From a virus, in the IMG/VR virus record IMGVR_UViG_3300030331_000115, positions 1 through 34,767 of that record: DNA of 34,767 nucleotides; one strand, given 5' to 3'. This document shows positions 4,101-34,194 of this stretch, one piece after another. Under the pieces are notes generated by a model, which was not told the origin of the DNA, did no database searches, and saw only the letters and a program-made list of their open reading frames with translations. A program made the position numbers and the translations under genes. How positions within the stretch are numbered: the stretch's first letter is position 1; each line of letters starts with the position of its first letter.

Positions 4101-6494
4101 GTGAGCAAGTCACAGCAAAAACTTGAACAGGAGATGATCCGGCTGGGGCAGGAACGCTACAACCACAAGGTCAAGCGAGCCAAAGAAACCAAAATGGAAA
4201 CCACTACCCCCGTCGGCAGGCAACTGTTGAGCGGGGCTGTTGTCGCATTGGAGCAAGGCATCGAGTCATGGCTTTCCACCACCCGATCCAAGCCGGGACG
4301 CAGGCATCGTGCTGCCCCATACGTCGAGATGCTCCCTGCTGGTGTGGTGGCAACTATCACTTGCAGGTCGCTGCTGGACTCAATCAGCATGGAAAAGAAG
4401 ATCACTCCCACGGCTGCTGCCATCGCTCGCCTGCTGGAGGACGAGTTGATCTTCCGAGCGGTTGCTGAGAATGAGCCTGCTCTCTGGAAGCAGATGCACC
4501 GTGTCATTGACCGACACAAATCTCAGAAAACCAAAAGCAAATTCATCAACAACACGCTCAAGTACCACAACATGGGGATCAGTCGCTGGGACAAGAAAGA
4601 GGCGGTCGCTGTCGGCCTCACCCTGATTGAGTTGATGCAGCAGCACACAGGCATCATTCAGATCGTGACCCGCAAGGATGCTCGTGGCAAGTCCTACACC
4701 TACATCCGACCCACTGACGAAATCTTGAAATGGATGCGTGACGGGCACGAAGAAGCAAGTATAATGTTCCCTGTCTGGTTGCCTTCCGTCGAACGACCTG
4801 TCGATTGGAAGAACCCGTTCATCGGCGGTTACGCTGCCCTGAACATCAGGCATCGCCCTCTGGTCAAGACGCAAGACGCTGCGTATCTTGAAGAACTGGC
4901 GGTGACTGAGATGGACAGCGTGTACCGTGCGGTGAACACCCTACAGAGAGTGCCCGTTCGCTATCATCACACGGTCGCTGGCCTCCTTGAGTGGGCTTGG
5001 GACAAAGCCCTGCCAGTCGGTGGCCTGCCCTCAATGGAAGACCACGAGATTCCTAACAAGCCTGTAGATATTGATACGAATAAAGACGCACGCAAAAGGT
5101 GGAGAAGAGATGCAGCCCGCATCCACTTTGAAAATGAGCGGCAGAAGTCCAAGCGTTTACAGGTGATGAAGACCGTGCAAGTCATGGAGCGGTTCAAAGA
5201 TGATCGGGTGTACTTCCCCGGCAATCTGGACTTCAGGGGGCGTTGGTACTACATACCTCACTACTGGCAACCACAAGGACCGTCGTGGACGAAGGCGACT
5301 CTCAGGTTCGAGGACGGGGCAAAGATCACCGATTCGGGTGTTAGATGGCTCTATATCAATGCAGCCAACAAGTGGGGCATGGATAAGAAGTCCTTTACTG
5401 ATCGCTACAGGTGGAGTGAGGACAGTATCGAGATGATCAAGGCTGTTGGATCAGAACCGACAGCAAATATGGATTGGACAAAAGCAGACGATCCGTTCGG
5501 CTTTGTGGCGGCTTGTCACGAAATTTCAGAACTGCACTTGCAGGGATCTTCGTTTCGCACTACTCTCCCCGTCGCACTCGATGCCACAACACAAGGTTTG
5601 CAGATTTATGCGATGCTGCTGAAGGATCCAGTGTCTGCCTTGTCAACAAACGTCCTGCCGGACAGCGAGCCATCTGATACTTATCAGTTGGTCGCGGATC
5701 GTGTTATCCAGAAACTCCAAGAGAGTTCTGACTCATACGCAAAGAAGTGGTTGGAGTTTGGCATCACCCGTTCATGTACAAAGCGGCAGACGATGACTCT
5801 GTGCTACGGCTCCACCTTCTACTCCTGTCAGTCTTACACCGCAGAGTGGTTTTACAAAGAGTTGAAGACAGGAAGAAGCAATCCCTTTGGTGAAGAGACA
5901 TACGCTCCTTGCAACTTTTTGTCTGCTTTGATCTGGGATGCAATCAACGAAGTTGTTGGTGCTGCTCATACTTGCATGGAGTGGCTGAGAGAATGCACGA
6001 AGATTCTCATTGAGCATGATGTCACACCACGTTGGATGACTCCGCTCGGCTTCCCAGTCAAGATGAGGTACGAGAACTACAACTCACAGACTGTCAAAAC
6101 AATCGTGGCAGGCAACGTGCGAAGACACCGCATCAATGTTGAGAATGGAGAGACAAGTGTTCGCAAGACTGTCAACGGCATCTGTGCAAACCTTGTTCAC
6201 TCTTTGGACGGTGTTGGTGGCATTCTTGGCTTGACTGTGTTGAAGTGTTTGGAGAGAGGAGTAAACAACATCTTTGGTGTTCACGACTCCGCCTCTGTCC
6301 TTGCCACCGACTGTGACCTGTTCAACGAAGCGGTGCGTGAAGCAACTGTTGAAATCTTTGAAGATGACATGCTTGGAAAAATTGAACAAATGTTCTTGAC
6401 CATGTTGCCATCTGATGTACACTTACCTCCCGCTCCCCAACGTGGGGACTTGGATATCACCAAGGTGTTAGAGTCACCTTACTACTGGAATTGA
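4101..6494 (+). CDS. Single-subunit phage DNA-directed RNA polymerase
   Basis: This is a 797-residue T7-type RNA polymerase (T7 gp1 is 883), which transcribes the middle and late genes from phage promoters. Visible marks: NLDFRGRWYYIP (T7 DWRGRVY region); motif A LPVALDATTQGLQIY with Asp494 (T7 Asp537); motif B RSCTKRQTMTLCYGS with Lys561 and Tyr569 (T7 Lys631, Tyr639); motif C IFGVHDSAS with Asp729 (T7 Asp812). All catalytic residues are present, so it should be active. The GTG at 4101 coincides with the predicted transcription start and has no Shine-Dalgarno; an ATG at 4134 would still leave the catalytic core whole. It is separated from the early genes by a terminator and from SSB by 11 nt. 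Confidence 0.97.
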   Translation: MSKSQQKLEQEMIRLGQERYNHKVKRAKETKMETTTPVGRQLLSGAVVALEQGIESWLSTTRSKPGRRHRAAPYVEMLPAGVVATITCRSLLDSISMEKKITPTAAAIARLLEDELIFRAVAENEPALWKQMHRVIDRHKSQKTKSKFINNTLKYHNMGISRWDKKEAVAVGLTLIELMQQHTGIIQIVTRKDARGKSYTYIRPTDEILKWMRDGHEEASIMFPVWLPSVERPVDWKNPFIGGYAALNIRHRPLVKTQDAAYLEELAVTEMDSVYRAVNTLQRVPVRYHHTVAGLLEWAWDKALPVGGLPSMEDHEIPNKPVDIDTNKDARKRWRRDAARIHFENERQKSKRLQVMKTVQVMERFKDDRVYFPGNLDFRGRWYYIPHYWQPQGPSWTKATLRFEDGAKITDSGVRWLYINAANKWGMDKKSFTDRYRWSEDSIEMIKAVGSEPTANMDWTKADDPFGFVAACHEISELHLQGSSFRTTLPVALDATTQGLQIYAMLLKDPVSALSTNVLPDSEPSDTYQLVADRVIQKLQESSDSYAKKWLEFGITRSCTKRQTMTLCYGSTFYSCQSYTAEWFYKELKTGRSNPFGEETYAPCNFLSALIWDAINEVVGAAHTCMEWLRECTKILIEHDVTPRWMTPLGFPVKMRYENYNSQTVKTIVAGNVRRHRINVENGETSVRKTVNGICANLVHSLDGVGGILGLTVLKCLERGVNNIFGVHDSASVLATDCDLFNEAVREATVEIFEDDMLGKIEQMFLTMLPSDVHLPPAPQRGDLDITKVLESPYYWN

Positions 6495-12648: not shown

Positions 12649-12876
12649 ATGTGTGTAGGCGGCGGAGGAGGCGGAAGACCTCTATTTACACCCACCCCTT
12701 TAACTCCCGTGGCCCCTCCCCCACCACCAGATCAGATTGATTTGATGGGAGTCCCTCAGTTGGCACTTCAGAGTATGCTCAACCGTCAGTCTCGTGCGAA
12801 GACGGCAGCAGAGCAACGCCGTCGCGGCAAAATGGGCGGTAAACGAATGATGACTATTCCAACGAGAACTTACTGA
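12649..12876 (+). CDS. Gly/Pro-rich protein upstream of portal
   Basis: This is a 75-residue protein that begins MCVGGGGGGR, runs into a Pro-rich stretch (TPVAPPPPPDQ) and ends in a basic region (RRRGKMGGKRMMTIP). It has AAAAAGGAG 6-7 nt upstream. Short proteins starting MC-GGG are common just before the portal gene of marine T7-like phages and may be minor virion components. The last base of its stop is shared with the portal ATG. Confidence 0.75.
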   Translation: MCVGGGGGGRPLFTPTPLTPVAPPPPPDQIDLMGVPQLALQSMLNRQSRAKTAAEQRRRGKMGGKRMMTIPTRTY

Positions 12877-14414
12877 TGTACACCCAGACCGGAACAATCA
12901 AAGCCACATATGAGCGACTAGCCGCTACGCGGTACTCCTATTTGGATCGTGGTCGAGACTCGTCCCGGTTAACTATTCCCACTCTGTTGCCAGATGAAGG
13001 AAACAACTCCGCAACCAAATTCACAACCCCGTACCAGTCAGTTGGTGCTAGGGGTGTGAACAATCTCGCCTCTGCCCTTCTTCTTTCTCTACTCCCTCCC
13101 AACGCACCCTTCTTCCGTCTAGTTCTAGATGAGGCTGAGGAGAGAAAACTTGAGGGCATTGATCCAAAGATACGCTCTGAGGTTGAAGACTCTCTTTCAC
13201 AAATCGAGCGATCAATCAGCAAAGAAATTGAATCTAGCAATATGCGAGTTGCCTTGTTTGAGGCACTTAAGCATCTTATTGTTGCTGGCAATGTTCTTAT
13301 TTACATGCCTGAAGACCTCCCTGTTCGCGTTTGCAGGCTCGACCGATTTGCTGTAAAGCGATGCCCACAGGGGTACGCACGATGCATTATTTTGAAAGAA
13401 ACGGTGCATCCCACCATGTTGCCTCCGGCTATTCGTGAAAAGGTCATGGCAGGTATGGACTCTTCCAGCGAAATGGTGGAGATGTTTACCAAGCAAGAGG
13501 CGATTGATATTGACACCGTTGAGGTGACTCAAGAGGTTGGGGGCGTTCCCATTCCAGAAGTCACTCAGCAGTACAAGAAAGAAGAAGCACCTTTCCTTGC
13601 CCTTCGCATGATTCGCGTAGATGGCGAAGATTACGGACGCGGGTATGTTGAGCAGTACTACGGCGACCTGTCAAGCCTTGAAGGTCTTACCAAATCCATT
13701 GTGGAGGGATCGGCGGCAGCGGCAAAAATTCTGTTTCTTGTCAATCCAAACGGCACAACTCGTGCCCGAACACTTGCGGAATCACCAAACGGTGCAATTA
13801 GAGAAGGATCGGCAAATGATGTCAGTGTACTGCAAACAGCGAAAGCGGCGGATTTCAGTATCGCTTTTAGTGCAATCAAACAAATTGAAGATCGCCTTTC
13901 GTATGCGTTCCTCCTCACCGAATCAACTATACGCAATGCGGATCGGGTTACGGCTGAAGAAGTCCGACTCGTAACGCAATCCATTGAAAAACAACTTGGC
14001 GGAATCTACTCCGTTCTTTCTCAAGACTTCCAACTTCCCATGTTGCGGCGTGTGATGATGCAGATGTCTAAATCGAAGAAACTACCTAAGTTGCCTACAG
14101 ATATGATTTCACCAGCCATTATCACCGGAGTCGAGGCTTTGGGGCGTGGATCTGATCTAAATCGTCTTGACCTGTATCTTGGCGGCATCGCACAAATGCT
14201 TGGGCCACAAGCCCTCCAAGAATATGTCAATGTTCCTGAATACTTGAGTCGCCGTGCCGCCTCTCTCGGTATTGACCGTAAGGGTCTTGTGCGTACCGAA
14301 GAAGAACTGGCTCAGATGCGTCAGCAGGCAATGATGGCTCAAATGGCACAGCAGGCAGGGCCACAGGTTCTTGCTTCAGCAGCCGAACAACAACAACCAG
14401 AAAACAGTGAATAA
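12876..14414 (+). CDS. Portal (head-tail connector) protein, gp8-like
   Basis: This is a 512-residue protein that forms the dodecameric ring at the capsid vertex through which DNA is packaged and ejected. The N-terminus (ATYERLAATRYSYLDRGRD) and TPYQSVGARGVNNLASALLL (about 49-68) closely follow T7 gp8 (536 residues). The C-terminus is Gln/Met/Ala-rich (QQAMMAQMAQQAG), as in related portals. The stop TAA is next to ATG and the scaffold gene follows with a 1-nt overlap. Complete. Confidence 0.95.
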   Translation: MYTQTGTIKATYERLAATRYSYLDRGRDSSRLTIPTLLPDEGNNSATKFTTPYQSVGARGVNNLASALLLSLLPPNAPFFRLVLDEAEERKLEGIDPKIRSEVEDSLSQIERSISKEIESSNMRVALFEALKHLIVAGNVLIYMPEDLPVRVCRLDRFAVKRCPQGYARCIILKETVHPTMLPPAIREKVMAGMDSSSEMVEMFTKQEAIDIDTVEVTQEVGGVPIPEVTQQYKKEEAPFLALRMIRVDGEDYGRGYVEQYYGDLSSLEGLTKSIVEGSAAAAKILFLVNPNGTTRARTLAESPNGAIREGSANDVSVLQTAKAADFSIAFSAIKQIEDRLSYAFLLTESTIRNADRVTAEEVRLVTQSIEKQLGGIYSVLSQDFQLPMLRRVMMQMSKSKKLPKLPTDMISPAIITGVEALGRGSDLNRLDLYLGGIAQMLGPQALQEYVNVPEYLSRRAASLGIDRKGLVRTEEELAQMRQQAMMAQMAQQAGPQVLASAAEQQQPENSE

Positions 14415-15211: not shown

Positions 15212-15406
15212 ATGGAAAACAAACCCGGATACAAAACCACTGAGTTCTGGCTGTCTTTGTGTGCAGTCGCCCTTGGTGCATTTATTGGATCAGGAGCCAT
15301 CCCTACGGACGGTCCTTGGGTCCAAGTCGTTGCCCTGTTGAACACCGCGTTGGTGGCTATGGGGTATACAGGTTCTCGCCTCACTCTTAAGAATGGAGCC
15401 AAGTAA
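15212..15406 (+). CDS. Small two-helix membrane protein, holin candidate
   Basis: This is a 64-residue protein with two hydrophobic helices (LSLCAVALGAFIGSGAI, about 13-29, and VQVVALLNTALVAMGY, about 37-52), a short linker with Pro and Gly, and a basic tail (LTLKNGAK). The N-terminal KPGYKTTEFWLS is seen in small membrane proteins of many phages, often labelled holins. An AAGGA site is 7 nt before the ATG. Whether it forms the lysis pore or another membrane channel is not shown; a second candidate lies at 33979. Confidence 0.7.
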   Translation: MENKPGYKTTEFWLSLCAVALGAFIGSGAIPTDGPWVQVVALLNTALVAMGYTGSRLTLKNGAK

Positions 15407-15473: not shown

Positions 15474-15590
15474 GTGAAAAAGAAGATGACACCAAAGCAA
15501 AAGAAGTTGGCTGCTCTTGCTCCTCCTCGTAACAAAATCACCAAGGCCGACATCATCGTTGGTGCGAAAAGACGTAGCGGTAAGAAGTAA
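15474..15590 (+). CDS. Small Lys-rich protein (38 residues)
   Basis: A 38-residue protein from a GTG at 15474, with AAAAAGGGG upstream. It begins MKKKMTPKQKKLAALAPP and ends RRSGKK, with 14 Lys or Arg in 38 positions. Similar peptides with the TPKQKKLAALAPP pattern occur in marine podophages. It shares the final A of its stop with the next ATG. Confidence 0.65.
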   Translation: MKKKMTPKQKKLAALAPPRNKITKADIIVGAKRRSGKK

Positions 15591-15772
15591 TGGCTCGTAA
15601 AAAACTCAAGATCAAAAAGGGAAGCCCAAAACCTACCAACCCCTCCCTTTGGTCACGAGCAAAATCACTGGCCCGTAAAAAGTTCAAGGTGTACCCATCA
15701 GCCTACGCCAACGCTTGGGCAGCAAAATGGTACAAGTCCAAGGGTGGTGGTTGGAGGGGAGGTAAATCGTGA
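15590..15772 (+). CDS. Small basic phage protein (60 residues)
   Basis: A 60-residue basic protein with the pattern ARKKFKVYPSAYANAWAAKW (about 28-47), found in small proteins of many tailed phages. It has an SLWSRAKSLARKKF helix and a Gly-rich tail. It starts in a TAATG overlap and its stop overlaps the next GTG (GTGA). It may be a minor DNA-binding or virion protein; this is not proven. Confidence 0.75.
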   Translation: MARKKLKIKKGSPKPTNPSLWSRAKSLARKKFKVYPSAYANAWAAKWYKSKGGGWRGGKS

Positions 15773-15927
15773 AGAAAAAGAAATTGACAAAACGCCAAGA
15801 GCAGACCATGAAACGTCACTCTAAGCATCACACTGCAAAACACATGAAGACAATGCGTGACTTGATGATTCAGGGCAAAACCTTTGGTCAGGCGCACACT
15901 ATTGCAAAGCGTAAAGTTGGAAAATGA
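15769..15927 (+). CDS. Small Lys/His-rich protein (52 residues)
   Basis: A 52-residue protein from a GTG in a 4-nt overlap with the previous stop. It begins MKKKKLTKRQEQTMKRHSKH and contains many Lys, His and Met residues; the LTKRQ--TMK-HSKHHT-KHM pattern is typical of small proteins in marine phages. It is predicted to be mostly helical and strongly basic. It overlaps the next gene (ATGA) by 4 nt. Confidence 0.7.
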   Translation: MKKKKLTKRQEQTMKRHSKHHTAKHMKTMRDLMIQGKTFGQAHTIAKRKVGK

Positions 15928-16172
15928 GTTACGAAGGCGGTCTTCGGAAATGGTTCAAAGAGGACTGGCGTGATGTAAAAACTGGAGAGAAGTGTGGTCG
16001 TAAATCTGCCAAGGGTGGATCAAAGCGGCCCTACCCCGCATGTCGCCCAGCATCTGTAGCGAAGCGACTTTCGATCAAAGAAAAGAGAGCCACTGCTCGT
16101 CGCAAGACTGGTAAGGGCCGTGTCAACTGGCAAATCACCGCATCCGGTAGAAGGAGAAAACGTGGCAATTAA
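15924..16172 (+). CDS. Small basic phage protein (DUF5872-like)
   Basis: An 82-residue basic protein. The segment KWFKEDWRDVKTGEKCGRKS followed by RPYPACRP (about 9-43) matches a short domain shared by many tailed phages (DUF5872-like), with two Cys that could bind metal or form a bond. The C-terminal half is Arg/Lys-rich (KEKRATARRKTGKGR). It is in an ATGA overlap with its left neighbour and overlaps the next gene by 11 nt. Confidence 0.75.
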   Translation: MSYEGGLRKWFKEDWRDVKTGEKCGRKSAKGGSKRPYPACRPASVAKRLSIKEKRATARRKTGKGRVNWQITASGRRRKRGN

Positions 16173-16413
16173 TTATCGTGGCGAAAGATTCTCCGGCTAC
16201 AACAAGCCCAAGAGAACCCCCGGCAAATCCAAAAAGTTTGCTGTGCTTGCAAAGGACGGCAGTAAGGTTCGCTTGATCCGATACGGTGATCCCAACATGA
16301 AGATCAAGAAGAACATTCCCGGTCGGCGTAAGAACTTCAGAGCAAGACACGGCTGCGACAGCCGACCGCCGAGTAAATTGACCGCTCGATATTGGTCATG
16401 TAAGAAGTGGTAA
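16162..16413 (+). CDS. Small basic conserved phage protein (83 residues)
   Basis: An 83-residue protein from GTG 16162, with AAGGAG 7 nt upstream; the longer frame to 16120 lacks a ribosome site. The pattern FAVLAKDGSKVRLIRYGDPN, then RRKNFRARHGCDS and ARYWSCKKW, marks a family shared by many marine and freshwater podo- and siphophages. The two C-terminal Cys, with His, could bind metal. The function is unknown. It closes the run of small basic genes, 1 nt before the dockerin gene. Confidence 0.8.
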   Translation: MAINYRGERFSGYNKPKRTPGKSKKFAVLAKDGSKVRLIRYGDPNMKIKKNIPGRRKNFRARHGCDSRPPSKLTARYWSCKKW

Positions 16414-16414
16414 A

Positions 16415-17461
16415 ATGTTGAGCCTAATTCTTTCGTTGTTGGTATCCCAGAGCGGTCCTCCGTCTGACCCGGACGCTGTTGCTATGTGGATTGATGATTT
16501 AGGACGCTTGACTCCCTTTGGTCGCACGTTTGATGTTTACATCCAGACTGGCTTTGATCCTGACTTCTCCTACCCCAACGGAGATCCACGACGGCCCTAC
16601 ATGATTGGCTGCACCCGTGGCAACGAGTCGCCATCCCGGTCATTCACTTGGATGATTCAGGGCGAGGTCTTCAAGAACCACAGACCTGACAATGTTTACC
16701 CGTGGCTCGAAAACTGCCAAGAGTGCATTGACTACTGGAACCAAGACACCGGCATTCTTTGCCCCGGAGCAGGAGAGTATTGGGAGTGCATCCAATCCAA
16801 CCCGTACCAGCGGTGGATGTATCTGGGTATGAACTTCACCCCAATCAACTGGATCTTTGAGGGACCACAAGGGTGCTGCCCTCGAACCGCTGACATGGTT
16901 GATCTTGAGTACGCTTGGTGTGACTCATGGATTCTGCATGGGCCACTCGGCAAGAAGTACGGAAACTCACAGCAATACAAGTATCCGTTGGTGCAGCAGC
17001 AGCACAAGGATTTGATAACTCCAAGACCGTCACTTGGCATGATTATCAAGTATTGGGAGCCGCAGCCAGTTGGGGAGGTTCCCGGTCAAAGGTGCTGTTC
17101 ATCGCCATCGCAGAACGACTACGGTGACCTAATCCGATGGGACGCTGACGTTGATTGGATGAGTGAGAAGTGGCCCGGTTCGTTTCATATCGCTCGGTTC
17201 ACTGGTCCCGACAGGTTCGTGTCTTCTGGCGTTGTCCGCTTTGCTTGTGGCAATGACCACCCGTGCGAACCGTCGCCATACCAAGTTGAGTACGACGCAG
17301 ACAACTCGTGCCCGTCCGACCTGAACGAAGATGGCGTGGTGGGTTTCCAAGATTTGCTGCAAGTTTTGGGGGATGTGGCTGGTTACCGATACCACTACCA
17401 GACCAGCAACGGATTCAATGCCATAATCAAGGTGTTGTCAGAGTGGGGCGATTGTGATTAA
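16415..17461 (+). CDS. Secreted Cys-rich protein with C-terminal dockerin-like domain
   Basis: A 348-residue protein. Residues 1-12 form a short hydrophobic signal peptide (MLSLILSLLVSQ) with no basic n-region, so export is likely. The body has about 18 Cys and many Trp and Tyr, suggesting a disulfide-linked fold outside the cytoplasm; no known enzyme motif is seen. Near the C-terminus (about 298-348) CPSDLNEDGVVGFQDLLQVL holds one dockerin/EF-type calcium loop (D-N-D----G---D spacing), then a degenerate partner ending VLSEWGDC. This style is typical of planctomycete secreted proteins. A virion protein, an adhesin or a gene taken from the host are all possible. It sits between capsid-region genes and is 1 nt from both neighbours. 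Confidence 0.8.
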   Translation: MLSLILSLLVSQSGPPSDPDAVAMWIDDLGRLTPFGRTFDVYIQTGFDPDFSYPNGDPRRPYMIGCTRGNESPSRSFTWMIQGEVFKNHRPDNVYPWLENCQECIDYWNQDTGILCPGAGEYWECIQSNPYQRWMYLGMNFTPINWIFEGPQGCCPRTADMVDLEYAWCDSWILHGPLGKKYGNSQQYKYPLVQQQHKDLITPRPSLGMIIKYWEPQPVGEVPGQRCCSSPSQNDYGDLIRWDADVDWMSEKWPGSFHIARFTGPDRFVSSGVVRFACGNDHPCEPSPYQVEYDADNSCPSDLNEDGVVGFQDLLQVLGDVAGYRYHYQTSNGFNAIIKVLSEWGDCD

Positions 17462-17614
17462 ATGTGGAATGCGATATTTACTGCTTTGTTTCAGGTACTT
17501 CTTCCATTCGTACTTGCAGGCAAAACCGCCAAAAACGCCACTCGTCCTCCTGAGCATCACGCTTGGAAGCGTCGGATGTCAGAGTTCCAGCGTCGTATTC
17601 GTGGAGGAAAGTGA
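17462..17614 (+). CDS. Tiny membrane protein overlapping the lipoprotein gene
   Basis: A 50-residue frame whose ATG follows directly on the stop of the dockerin gene (TAAATG). Residues 3-20 are a hydrophobic helix (NAIFTALFQVLLPFVLAG); the rest is basic (HHAWKRRMSEFQRRIRGGK). It overlaps the lipoprotein gene in another frame, the layout of Rz/Rz1 spanin pairs. It is shorter than a usual inner-membrane spanin and has no clear coiled coil, so this role is only a possibility. The good start position and the protein-like sequence support a real gene. Confidence 0.6.
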   Translation: MWNAIFTALFQVLLPFVLAGKTAKNATRPPEHHAWKRRMSEFQRRIRGGK

Positions 17615-17777
17615 CGGACTCGTGAGGCTCGGCCCCGATGTCCGTGGAAAAGTCTACTATTGGGATGGTGAGGGATGGTCCCTCTCGTCTTCTGTAGTCC
17701 GGTTACCAGAAGGTTGGTATGCCGGATCCTTGAATGGTTCTCAAGATGAAACTTGGCCCGATGCGTCGGATAACTAA
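17469..17777 (+). CDS. Small lipoprotein (outer-membrane spanin candidate)
   Basis: The mature part begins at the Cys in the lipobox LGSVGC and runs about 66 residues (CQSSSVVFVEES, VRLGPDVRGKVYYWDGEGW, VRLPEGWYAG). This pattern occurs in small phage lipoproteins. The start is uncertain: ATG 17469 or GTG 17454 gives a long odd leader, while TTG 17514 gives a clean 22-residue signal (MQAKPPKTPLVLLSITL). The region up to the Cys is shared with the small membrane protein in a different frame. It is expected in the outer membrane or anchored to the cytoplasmic membrane facing outward. A role in lysis is inference from the arrangement. Confidence 0.7.
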   Translation: MRYLLLCFRYFFHSYLQAKPPKTPLVLLSITLGSVGCQSSSVVFVEESDGLVRLGPDVRGKVYYWDGEGWSLSSSVVRLPEGWYAGSLNGSQDETWPDASDN

Positions 17778-17829: not shown

Positions 17830-18948
17830 ATGGCTTACAACGCAACAAGTCCAAATCGGTTTGGTAATAACGCCGCAACCGCTACGGACGTAAATGAACT
17901 GTTCCTTAAGGTGTTCTCAGGGGAAGTCCTGACCACCTTCGAGGAAACCAACTTGATGATGGGTCTGCACCGTGTGCGTACCATCTCCAGCGGCAAGACC
18001 GCTCAATTCCCTGTGACTGGTGTCGCATCAGCCAAGTACCACACCCCCGGTGAAAGTGTCTTGGTCGATAACGCGGATTACCTGTCTTCCATCAACCACG
18101 GCGAAGTGACCATCTCGATTGACGGTGTGCTTCAGTCTTCAGCCTTTATTGCTGACCTTGATGAAGCGAAGAATCACTACGATGTTCGTTCCATCTACTC
18201 CACCGAAATCGGTCGAGCGTTGGCTTACCACGCTGACCGAGCAGTGATGCGTACTGTTATTGCAGGGGCACGGAAGACCACTGACCGCTTTGGCACGACT
18301 CAAAGCACCGATACTGGAGTTGCAAACAGTAAGTATCTCGGTGGTGTTATCAGTATCGAAGGTACGTCTGCTGCTACTGCTACTCACATTCTTTCAGAAC
18401 TTGAGTACGGTGGTGTCAACACTCAAGGTATCGGTGGTCAACTTTATGAAGGCATCTTCAAGGCCGCTAACCTGATGGATACCAAGAACGTGTCCCGTGA
18501 GGGCCGCTACTGCATTCTCAGCCCAGATAACTACTACAAGTTGCTGACTGAGCAGAAAGATGCCATCAACCGCGACTTCAACCCAGAAGGTAACGGCTCG
18601 TTGTCCGGCGGTGAGTTGGTCGAGATTGCTGGTGTTCGCATTCTGAAGTCCACTCACTTGCCTTCCGGCGACGAGTCTTCTTCACAGGATGCAAACTTTG
18701 GTGACAACGCCATCAATAACGATGTGTTCGGTGTGTCGCAAGGCGGCTACTCCGGCGTTAACTTCACTGGTACTCAAGGTATTGTCTTCCAAACTGAAGG
18801 CGTGGGTAGCGTGAAGTTGATGGATCTGTCTATGGAGTCTGAGTACTTCATGGAGCGTATGGGTACGCTTATGCTTGCCAAGTACGCAATGGGTCACGGC
18901 GTTCTTCGTCCTGAAGCCTGCTACGAGTTGGTAAACACCGGATCCTAA
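17830..18948 (+). CDS. Major capsid protein (T7 gp10-like)
   Basis: A 372-residue protein (T7 gp10A is 345). It forms the icosahedral shell around the DNA. It is identified by position after portal and scaffold, by length, and by segments such as NELFLKVFSGEVLTTFEETN (about 23-42), GKTAQFPVTGVASA and YHTPGE, which follow the T7-like capsid pattern. It has its own strong TTAAGGAG ribosome site and is one of the few genes here with free space on both sides, fitting high expression. No shifty heptamer for a gp10B-type longer form was found. Confidence 0.95.
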   Translation: MAYNATSPNRFGNNAATATDVNELFLKVFSGEVLTTFEETNLMMGLHRVRTISSGKTAQFPVTGVASAKYHTPGESVLVDNADYLSSINHGEVTISIDGVLQSSAFIADLDEAKNHYDVRSIYSTEIGRALAYHADRAVMRTVIAGARKTTDRFGTTQSTDTGVANSKYLGGVISIEGTSAATATHILSELEYGGVNTQGIGGQLYEGIFKAANLMDTKNVSREGRYCILSPDNYYKLLTEQKDAINRDFNPEGNGSLSGGELVEIAGVRILKSTHLPSGDESSSQDANFGDNAINNDVFGVSQGGYSGVNFTGTQGIVFQTEGVGSVKLMDLSMESEYFMERMGTLMLAKYAMGHGVLRPEACYELVNTGS

Positions 18949-33374: not shown

Positions 33375-33982
33375 TGGTTACCAAAATTTCAAACTTTATG
33401 CTTGAGGGCGGTAACGTCAGCAACTCATTCAAGACAGGAACAAACAATGGTCAGTTTGTCACGCTGGACAGCAACGGTGACATTCCTCCTACCTTGATTG
33501 GGCCGGTCGCAGATCAGTTTCGGATTACTGTAGATCAAGCAATCACAGCATCTGAGGCTGACATTGACTCAACGTGGGAGCGAGTAGACACTACTACTCA
33601 GGGAACTACAGGCGCTGGCTTTCAGATGTCTGAGTCTTCTGGTGTCTTTACTTTTCCCTTGAACGGTATTTACTTGGTGACCCTTCATTGCCAGATTGCT
33701 CGTACTGCTACTAACATCGACCTAATTACCGCTCGAATCAAAAGCACCAGTGACGGTTTTAGCAATCCCGAAAACACTGTCAACCACGCTGTGAGCATTC
33801 TAGGTGTTACCGGCTCTCTGCCCAAAGAAGTATCGGCAATGTCTACTTTAATTAATGTCACCAATACCAGCAATCACAAAGTTAAGTTTACGATTCAAGC
33901 CGATAACACTGGTTCTGAACTAGATGGTGACTCGGCCTTTAACAGTACTTACGCGACGTTTTTGCGGATTGTGGGGACATGA
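33374..33982 (+). CDS. C1q-like beta-sandwich protein, probable fibre accessory
   Basis: A 202-residue protein. The N-terminal 45 residues (NFMLEGGNVSNSFKTGTNNG) are a repeat-like stalk or attachment part. Residues about 55-202 form a jelly-roll domain (GVFTFPLNGIYLVTLHCQI, then KVKFTIQADNTGSEL and TYATFLRIVG), the usual C1q/TNF-like pattern. The same fold seems present at the end of the upstream fibre, so this may be a second adhesin or fibre tip. It overlaps the next gene by 4 nt. Confidence 0.75.
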   Translation: MVTKISNFMLEGGNVSNSFKTGTNNGQFVTLDSNGDIPPTLIGPVADQFRITVDQAITASEADIDSTWERVDTTTQGTTGAGFQMSESSGVFTFPLNGIYLVTLHCQIARTATNIDLITARIKSTSDGFSNPENTVNHAVSILGVTGSLPKEVSAMSTLINVTNTSNHKVKFTIQADNTGSELDGDSAFNSTYATFLRIVGT

Positions 33983-34194
33983 TGGAAACTGACAATCAAA
34001 TACTGTTGGCCTTGGGTCGATTGGAGGGCAAAGTTGATTCACTCGTCGCCCGACAAAAGGTTATTGATGCTGAACTGGATAAACACGAATCTAGGATCCG
34101 CAGTCTTGAGCAAGGTAAATCATGGATGCTTGGAGCGGCTGCGGCTGTTGGGGCACTTGTATCGTTTATCGTTAAAGGATTTTCAAATGGATGA
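33979..34194 (+). CDS. Holin candidate with coiled coil and one membrane helix
   Basis: A 71-residue protein. Residues 5-45 are a charged coiled coil (LGRLEGKVDSLVARQ, ELDKHESRIRSLEQG) followed by one hydrophobic helix (WMLGAAAAVGALVSFIVKG, about 49-67). This layout occurs in XhlA-type and gp17.5-type holins, and the place between fibre and small terminase genes matches T7 gp17.5. It should act in the inner membrane during lysis. It overlaps the previous gene by 4 nt and the next by 8 nt. Confidence 0.75.
   Translation: MMETDNQILLALGRLEGKVDSLVARQKVIDAELDKHESRIRSLEQGKSWMLGAAAAVGALVSFIVKGFSNG

Follow-up and report, generated by a model that had tools for sequence, protein, structure and literature searches.

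The gene described here, which we call doc, is best read as an accessory gene that phages exchange horizontally and whose product, located at the host surface, alters that surface or adsorption to the cell, a reading to which we assign a probability of roughly 0.5. It lies in a 34.8-kb IMG/VR virus record (IMGVR_UViG_3300030331_000115, 34,767 nucleotides), the whole of which we refer to as the window, and it belongs to an unnamed protein family that none of the searched family libraries contains. That the product is an exported accessory protein held in the envelope seems quite probable. That it blocks adsorption or superinfection is the activity that we prefer, a tentative proposal and the least certain step of the argument.

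Genomic context of doc

The window has a T7-like gene order, with a single-subunit RNA polymerase, a T7-type portal, a scaffold, a Gp10A-like capsid protein, a nozzle and internal virion proteins, and doc lies between the scaffold and capsid genes (Table 1). A preliminary description, made from the sequence alone, had correctly placed it in the virion gene block of such a phage. The record is probably incomplete, since it ends without a recognised large terminase gene; near its right end (33979-34194) it encodes a 71-aa XhlA-like transmembrane (TM) protein.

Several smaller features surround the gene. Three small basic proteins (15590-15772, 15924-16172 and 16162-16413) are DUF5872/DUF5754-like and fall in PHROGs of unknown function, and the same trio is seen near the head genes of an unrelated circular phage (G014; loci L166 and L168). 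Between doc and the capsid gene, the ORF at 17462-17614 and the lipoprotein ORF at 17472-17777 overlap in different frames; this embedded arrangement is reminiscent of two-part lysis genes and is resident in doc-less relatives too. A metallophosphoesterase gene is found near doc in about 17 contigs from several phage groups (e.g. L005:1048-2106).

Table 1. Positions of doc, its parts and its neighbours in the window.
Feature	Position	Strand	Basis or remark
Single-subunit RNA polymerase	4101-6494		
T7-type portal	12876-14414		
64-aa TM protein, holin-like	15212..15406	+	weak PHROG lysis/holin match, E 0.37
Small basic protein, DUF5872-like, phrog_23735	15924..16172	+	near doc in 36/85 doc loci
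Left insertion junction: stop (TAA) of the upstream gene, one base, then doc ATG	16411..16415	+	empty sites TAAAATGTGGAATG
doc gene (348 aa; predicted exported, Cys-rich, C-terminal EF-hand/dockerin-like tail)	16415..17461	+	ORF; 84 homologous IMG/VR contigs
doc predicted signal peptide, residues 1-13, hydrophobic, sequence-variable	16415..16453	+	
doc N-terminal motif DLGRLTPFGRTFDVYI, residues 28-43	16496..16543	+	core GRxTPxGxT in all paralogue subfamilies
doc C-terminal tail, residues 296-348	17300..17458	+	column identity 0.87; model EF-loop, helix, helix, pLDDT 70-90
doc EF-hand/dockerin-type Ca loop DLNEDGVVGFQD, residues 302-313	17318..17353	+	
Right insertion junction: doc stop TAA abuts the ATG of the next gene (ATGTGGAATGCG)	17459..17464	+	right flank
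50-aa TM + basic-tail ORF, immediately 3' of doc	17462..17614	+	sequence; present in doc-less relatives
Lipoprotein, lipobox LGSVGC	17472..17777	+	resident upstream of the capsid gene, doc-less phages included
Major capsid protein (Gp10A-like), context marker	17830..18948	+	

Sequence features of the doc protein

The reading frame of doc is complete and uninterrupted. The N-terminus of its 348-aa product, MLSLILSLLVSQSG, is hydrophobic, its top 9-mer having a mean Kyte-Doolittle value of 2.9 against a maximum of 1.58 further along (P=0.003 against shuffled sequences). This property is kept across 70 homologues despite poor sequence conservation of the region (column identity 0.42, against 0.85 in the mature part), and many of these homologues have textbook signal peptides (e.g. 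MRHFLTLVVCTLSSFSFA..., MKKIVCMLCGIFTFSSFA...); the window doc has a short signal whose n-region contains neither Lys nor Arg. Export of doc is thus predicted from the sequence, and the signal peptide of the preliminary description is upheld. Its mention of many cysteines was equally sound: they make up 14 of 348 residues (4.0%), whereas the figure for 20 other genes of the window is 0.86% (P=3e-6), and 12 of them are invariant among 41 aligned members. The C-terminal segment that it singled out is also real, in that DLNEDGVVGFQD fits a 12-residue EF-hand loop (D at position 1, N at 3, D at 5, G at 6, V at 8 and D at 12) and each ligand position is conserved in 96-100% of the 70 homologues.

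An insertion missing from sister phages

The gene is lacking altogether in L065 and L069-L072, which are closely related to the window phage (capsid 81-93% and portal 82-87% identical). Their empty site reads ...AAGTGGTAAAATGTGGAATG..., where the window has the entire gene between TAAA and ATGTGGAATG; the right flank of doc is 97.5-98.3% identical to theirs, and the flanks overall are 93-98% identical. The suggestion that the gene is foreign to the T7-like core therefore holds. Since the sister sites are empty to the base, doc is dispensable for the virion and replication of this phage type, and these sites rule out the reading of doc as an essential virion protein. The corresponding slot of L073, another relative, is occupied by a LysM + Phage_lysozyme protein (L073:4125-5045; PF00959, E 6e-9), and L065 and L069-L072 have neither gene there. 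The slot is a site for exchangeable cargo.

Relatives of doc and transfer between phage types

No match to doc was found in Pfam, NCBIfam or PHROGs, and comparison with PDB sequences gave nothing beyond a weak EF-hand likeness, to which the match with S100A7 (E 0.77) was attributed. The 50,697 named phage records contained no significant match, eight tblastn matches with E 3-4 being dismissed as chance, and the tail alone, used as a query against plasmids and phages, gave nothing significant. Two scans of IMG/VR recovered 84 further contigs that carry doc at 59-93% identity over most of its length; all of the relatives are metagenomic contigs, one of them circular, and they come from numerous independent samples. 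In 84,980 prokaryote species genomes, two pattern scans, which mainly reach close relatives, found no encoded relative of doc. The preliminary description had looked for best hits in Phycisphaerae as the sign of a host origin, and had taken matches confined to unrelated phages as evidence against it. The relatives that we found are all phage, mostly unrelated to that of the window, and these scans give a direct host origin no support.

Most of the contigs with doc have neither capsid, portal nor polymerase in common with the window phage, and the carriers include T7-like phages, T4-like phages, a circular 44-kb phage and others. In the T4-like G006, genes for gp20, the gp21 protease, gp22 and gp23 are followed by doc, pep210 and a gp19-like protein (families assigned by Pfam, the gp19 label by eye). 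The 44.4-kb phage G014, which is circular because doc spans the contig ends, has a terminase, portal and capsid unrelated to those of the window phage. On a quick protein tree of doc, eight phage marker groups, some of whose labels come from single marker genes in short contigs, required 27 label changes where the minimum is 7, an intermixing that is too strong to depend on single labels; the smallest well-supported clade around the window doc (support 95) already contains five phage groups. As the doc tree cuts across the marker groups in this way, the gene has evidently been traded between phages. The median dN/dS of 0.09 (408 pairs) indicates purifying selection, and the GC3 of doc tracks the GC of its carrier (r=0.87; GC 0.36-0.57), so that the copies have been resident long enough to adapt. 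The two together mark doc as a resident and selected gene.

This distribution bears on the idea that doc is a virion decoration or adhesin. Its nearness to the capsid gene in the window, and its position immediately behind gp23 in G006, would suit such a role, but an export signal and many cysteines fit poorly with it, as do the differing virion architectures of the carriers and the presence or absence of the gene among sister phages. We regard this as very improbable and the least likely of the readings considered.

Paralogues and co-occurring putative exported proteins

T4-like carriers encode tandem doc paralogues with overlapping reading frames, in subfamilies A-D, of which B-D are 21-37% identical to the window doc. 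All four subfamilies keep GRxTPxGxT, close to the N-terminus, and the EF-loop/W-G tail, but they vary in the middle. The tail is among the best-conserved parts across the paralogues, and a conserved tail on a variable core is as expected for a putative shared targeting tail. Across all of IMG/VR, the motif D.N.DG.VGF.DL is confined to two families, doc itself (67 ORFs) and another phage-encoded one of about 533 aa (6 ORFs). The latter, found at 8 IMG/VR loci, has a signal-like N-terminus and a canonical tail (GDANADGVVGFLDLTTILGNWGCEG; L240:3305-4906), and is encoded together with doc in at least one contig (L015). By eye, phages with the ~533-aa protein also appear to encode an outer-membrane porin-like protein with a C-terminal Phe and a TM + poly-Pro TonB-like protein (L240:5039-5890 and L257:763-1404).

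Directly downstream of the doc genes in T4-like carriers lies pep210, the product of which follows the pattern MxRxLALxITTAAxAD ... VPAPxxxxLGxxxxGRRRR (A4). It has the PEP-CTERM layout of an N-terminal signal peptide and a C-terminal Pro motif, hydrophobic stretch and basic cluster, here VPAP-hydrophobic-GRRRR. A doc-family gene is found just upstream in 27 of the 34 pep210 loci; at 4 of the other 7 the contig ends within 123 bases upstream, and L286, L287 and L301 are real exceptions. The scores of pep210 are below the cut-offs of the PEP-CTERM models TIGR02595 and PF07589 (13.0 bits against 16; 16.3 against 20.7); though below cut-off, the alignments of these models to the phage neighbours fall at the C-terminus. 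A third protein, of the form CxxC-coil-TM-loop-Pro-hydrophobic-RKR, is encoded at 30 of 85 doc loci and at none of 79 doc-less T7-like loci, a contrast that, like the other presence/absence contrasts of doc neighbours, is confounded by phage type. Its sequence contains two hydrophobic segments and has a basic C-terminal end, and its gene overlaps the doc stop in several phages.

This CxxC partner could also serve a different account, in which doc, exported by Sec, brings about lysis or egress as a novel secreted endolysin or an envelope disruptor, together with holin-like membrane proteins. The lysozyme in the doc slot of L073 fits such a role, as do the nearby holin-like 64-aa TM protein, the adjoining lipoprotein and the strong purifying selection on doc; moreover, a search of the doc records for four endolysin families gave one SLT match (G016) and none else over the cut-off. 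However, the slot in L065 and L069-L072 holds neither doc nor a lysozyme, and PF00959, PF01510 and PF08291 endolysins are also missing from more distant relatives that have no doc, so that the absence of endolysins is not informative; the same two observations weaken the specific proposal that doc is the only endolysin. Neither a catalytic family nor a fold match was obtained for doc, Pfam, PHROG and PDB sequence comparisons revealed no known muralytic domain, and tandem paralogues with differing cores are ill-suited to a single lytic enzyme. We consider a lytic role, the chief rival to our preferred reading, unlikely, but not negligible.

Predicted structure

A first AlphaFold model of doc was set aside (pLDDT 40). 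An AF2 model based on 54 family members, paralogue D included, has a mean pLDDT of 66 and a pTM of 0.70; its better regions are an N-terminal sheet (residues 11-80, pLDDT about 75-86) and the C-terminal part (241-348, 64-90), the Cys-rich middle is poorly modelled, and a predicted helix at residues 311-322 follows the Ca loop. In Foldseek searches of the PDB and of viral libraries, no match reached E below 0.1. The top re-scored PDB chains were cohesin modules, with weak Z scores of 5.6 (2vo8, rmsd 3.7 over 120), 5.2 (1aoh, rmsd 3.6 over 129), 4.5 and 4.2, and with a model of pLDDT 66 and Z below 8 the likeness may reflect merely a common arrangement, perhaps just that of a beta-sandwich.

Such a fold, weakly like cohesin modules and adhesins over this range of Z (5.6 to 4.2), would also suit a captured host extracellular protein of metabolic or adhesive use (e.g. 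nutrient binding or biofilm attachment), that is, an auxiliary gene and not a phage-phage weapon. The signal and tail of doc are host-like, and its neighbours are of exosortase type. Yet the pattern scans of the 84,980 species genomes gave no cellular relative, and a lytic infection is too short for much nutrient gain, which together make this reading improbable.

Proposed role and significance

We return to doc as a protein that acts on the host surface. It would be made late, together with the capsid genes (a timing assumed from gene position), and exported by the host Sec pathway, with removal of the signal peptide. In an oxidising compartment it would fold into a beta-sandwich with a variable Cys-rich insert, the 12 invariant cysteines presumably forming disulfides, and its C-terminal calcium-loop tail would hold it at the outer envelope, as the dockerin-type tails of host surface proteins do. 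There it would most likely alter the surface of the infected cell, blocking superinfection or the re-adsorption of released virions, and the benefit would go to whichever phage infects that host. The gene with its conservation and constraint, its passage among phage types, its exact insertion, the paralogues and the tail-bearing neighbours are all shown by the sequences; in this scheme we infer the export, the anchoring, the late timing and the host phylum. A planctomycete host and origin is plausible, given the types of tail and what is generally known of them. An effect on the infected-cell surface, also raised in the preliminary description, gains indirect support from the tandem paralogues in relatives and from the exosortase-type tails of proteins encoded nearby. 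As a counterpoint, exclusion proteins are not usually as conserved as mature doc (85% column identity), a level that would fit an enzyme or a lysis factor as well.

A wider proposal, for which we put the odds a little short of even, is that marine phages of one host group, though of unrelated types, draw on a common mobile set of exported proteins (doc paralogues, pep210, the CxxC-TM partner and the ~533-aa protein) that use host dockerin- and exosortase-type anchoring to rebuild the infected surface. If so, this would represent viral use of host sorting systems and a host-specific gene pool crossing phage families. The doc family itself is traded under strong selection between phages that have neither capsid nor tail genes in common. 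If doc acts on the host surface, these phages borrow bacterial surface-anchoring signals, and the family provides a marker for the phages of a host group from which hardly any phage has been isolated, as well as testable constructs for the envelope delivery of dockerin- and exosortase-tailed proteins. We found nothing relevant in the literature on dockerin or PEP-CTERM proteins in phages of planctomycetes.

Comparison with known systems

Cohesin and dockerin modules occur in freshwater Planctomycetes, with dockerin-bearing exported proteins (the 'planctosome'; PMC6461901), and PEP-CTERM systems have been recorded in Planctomycetes among other phyla (PMC1569441). Like Type I dockerins (PF00404) and planctosome proteins, doc has a C-terminal D-x-N-x-D-G-x-V-x3-D loop and then a helix, on a protein that is predicted to be exported, and its residues 302-313 conform to the dockerin pattern D-x-[ND]-x-[DN]-G-x-[VI]-x3-D followed by a helix. 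Unlike Type I dockerins, doc and its paralogues have a single canonical loop and not two loop-helix repeats, the second half (NNGFNAIxKVLSEWG) being without ligands; doc also ends in W-G-x-C and is phage-encoded, and PF00404 gave no match over cut-off for doc, for 41 members or anywhere in the window record. What stands of the dockerin assignment in the preliminary description is therefore one Ca loop with its helix, and the second loop and the Pfam match are missing.

The substrates of PEP-CTERM/exosortase systems (TIGR02595, PF07589) are resembled by pep210 and the CxxC partner, which likewise end in a Pro motif, a hydrophobic stretch and a basic cluster, though with sub-cut-off scores for these neighbours, whereas doc itself has no such tail. 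Some phages, for example fOg44 with Lys44, encode signal-peptide endolysins. With these doc shares predicted Sec export, holin-like genes nearby and a place in a presumed late module, but it has no recognised endolysin domain or fold. Exported phage morons that cause superinfection exclusion include T5 Llp, Cor and SieA. Like them, doc is accessory, predicted to be exported, and gained or lost between sister phages; unlike them, it is much larger, Cys-rich and strongly conserved across unrelated phages, and it has a host-style tail that would serve for anchoring.
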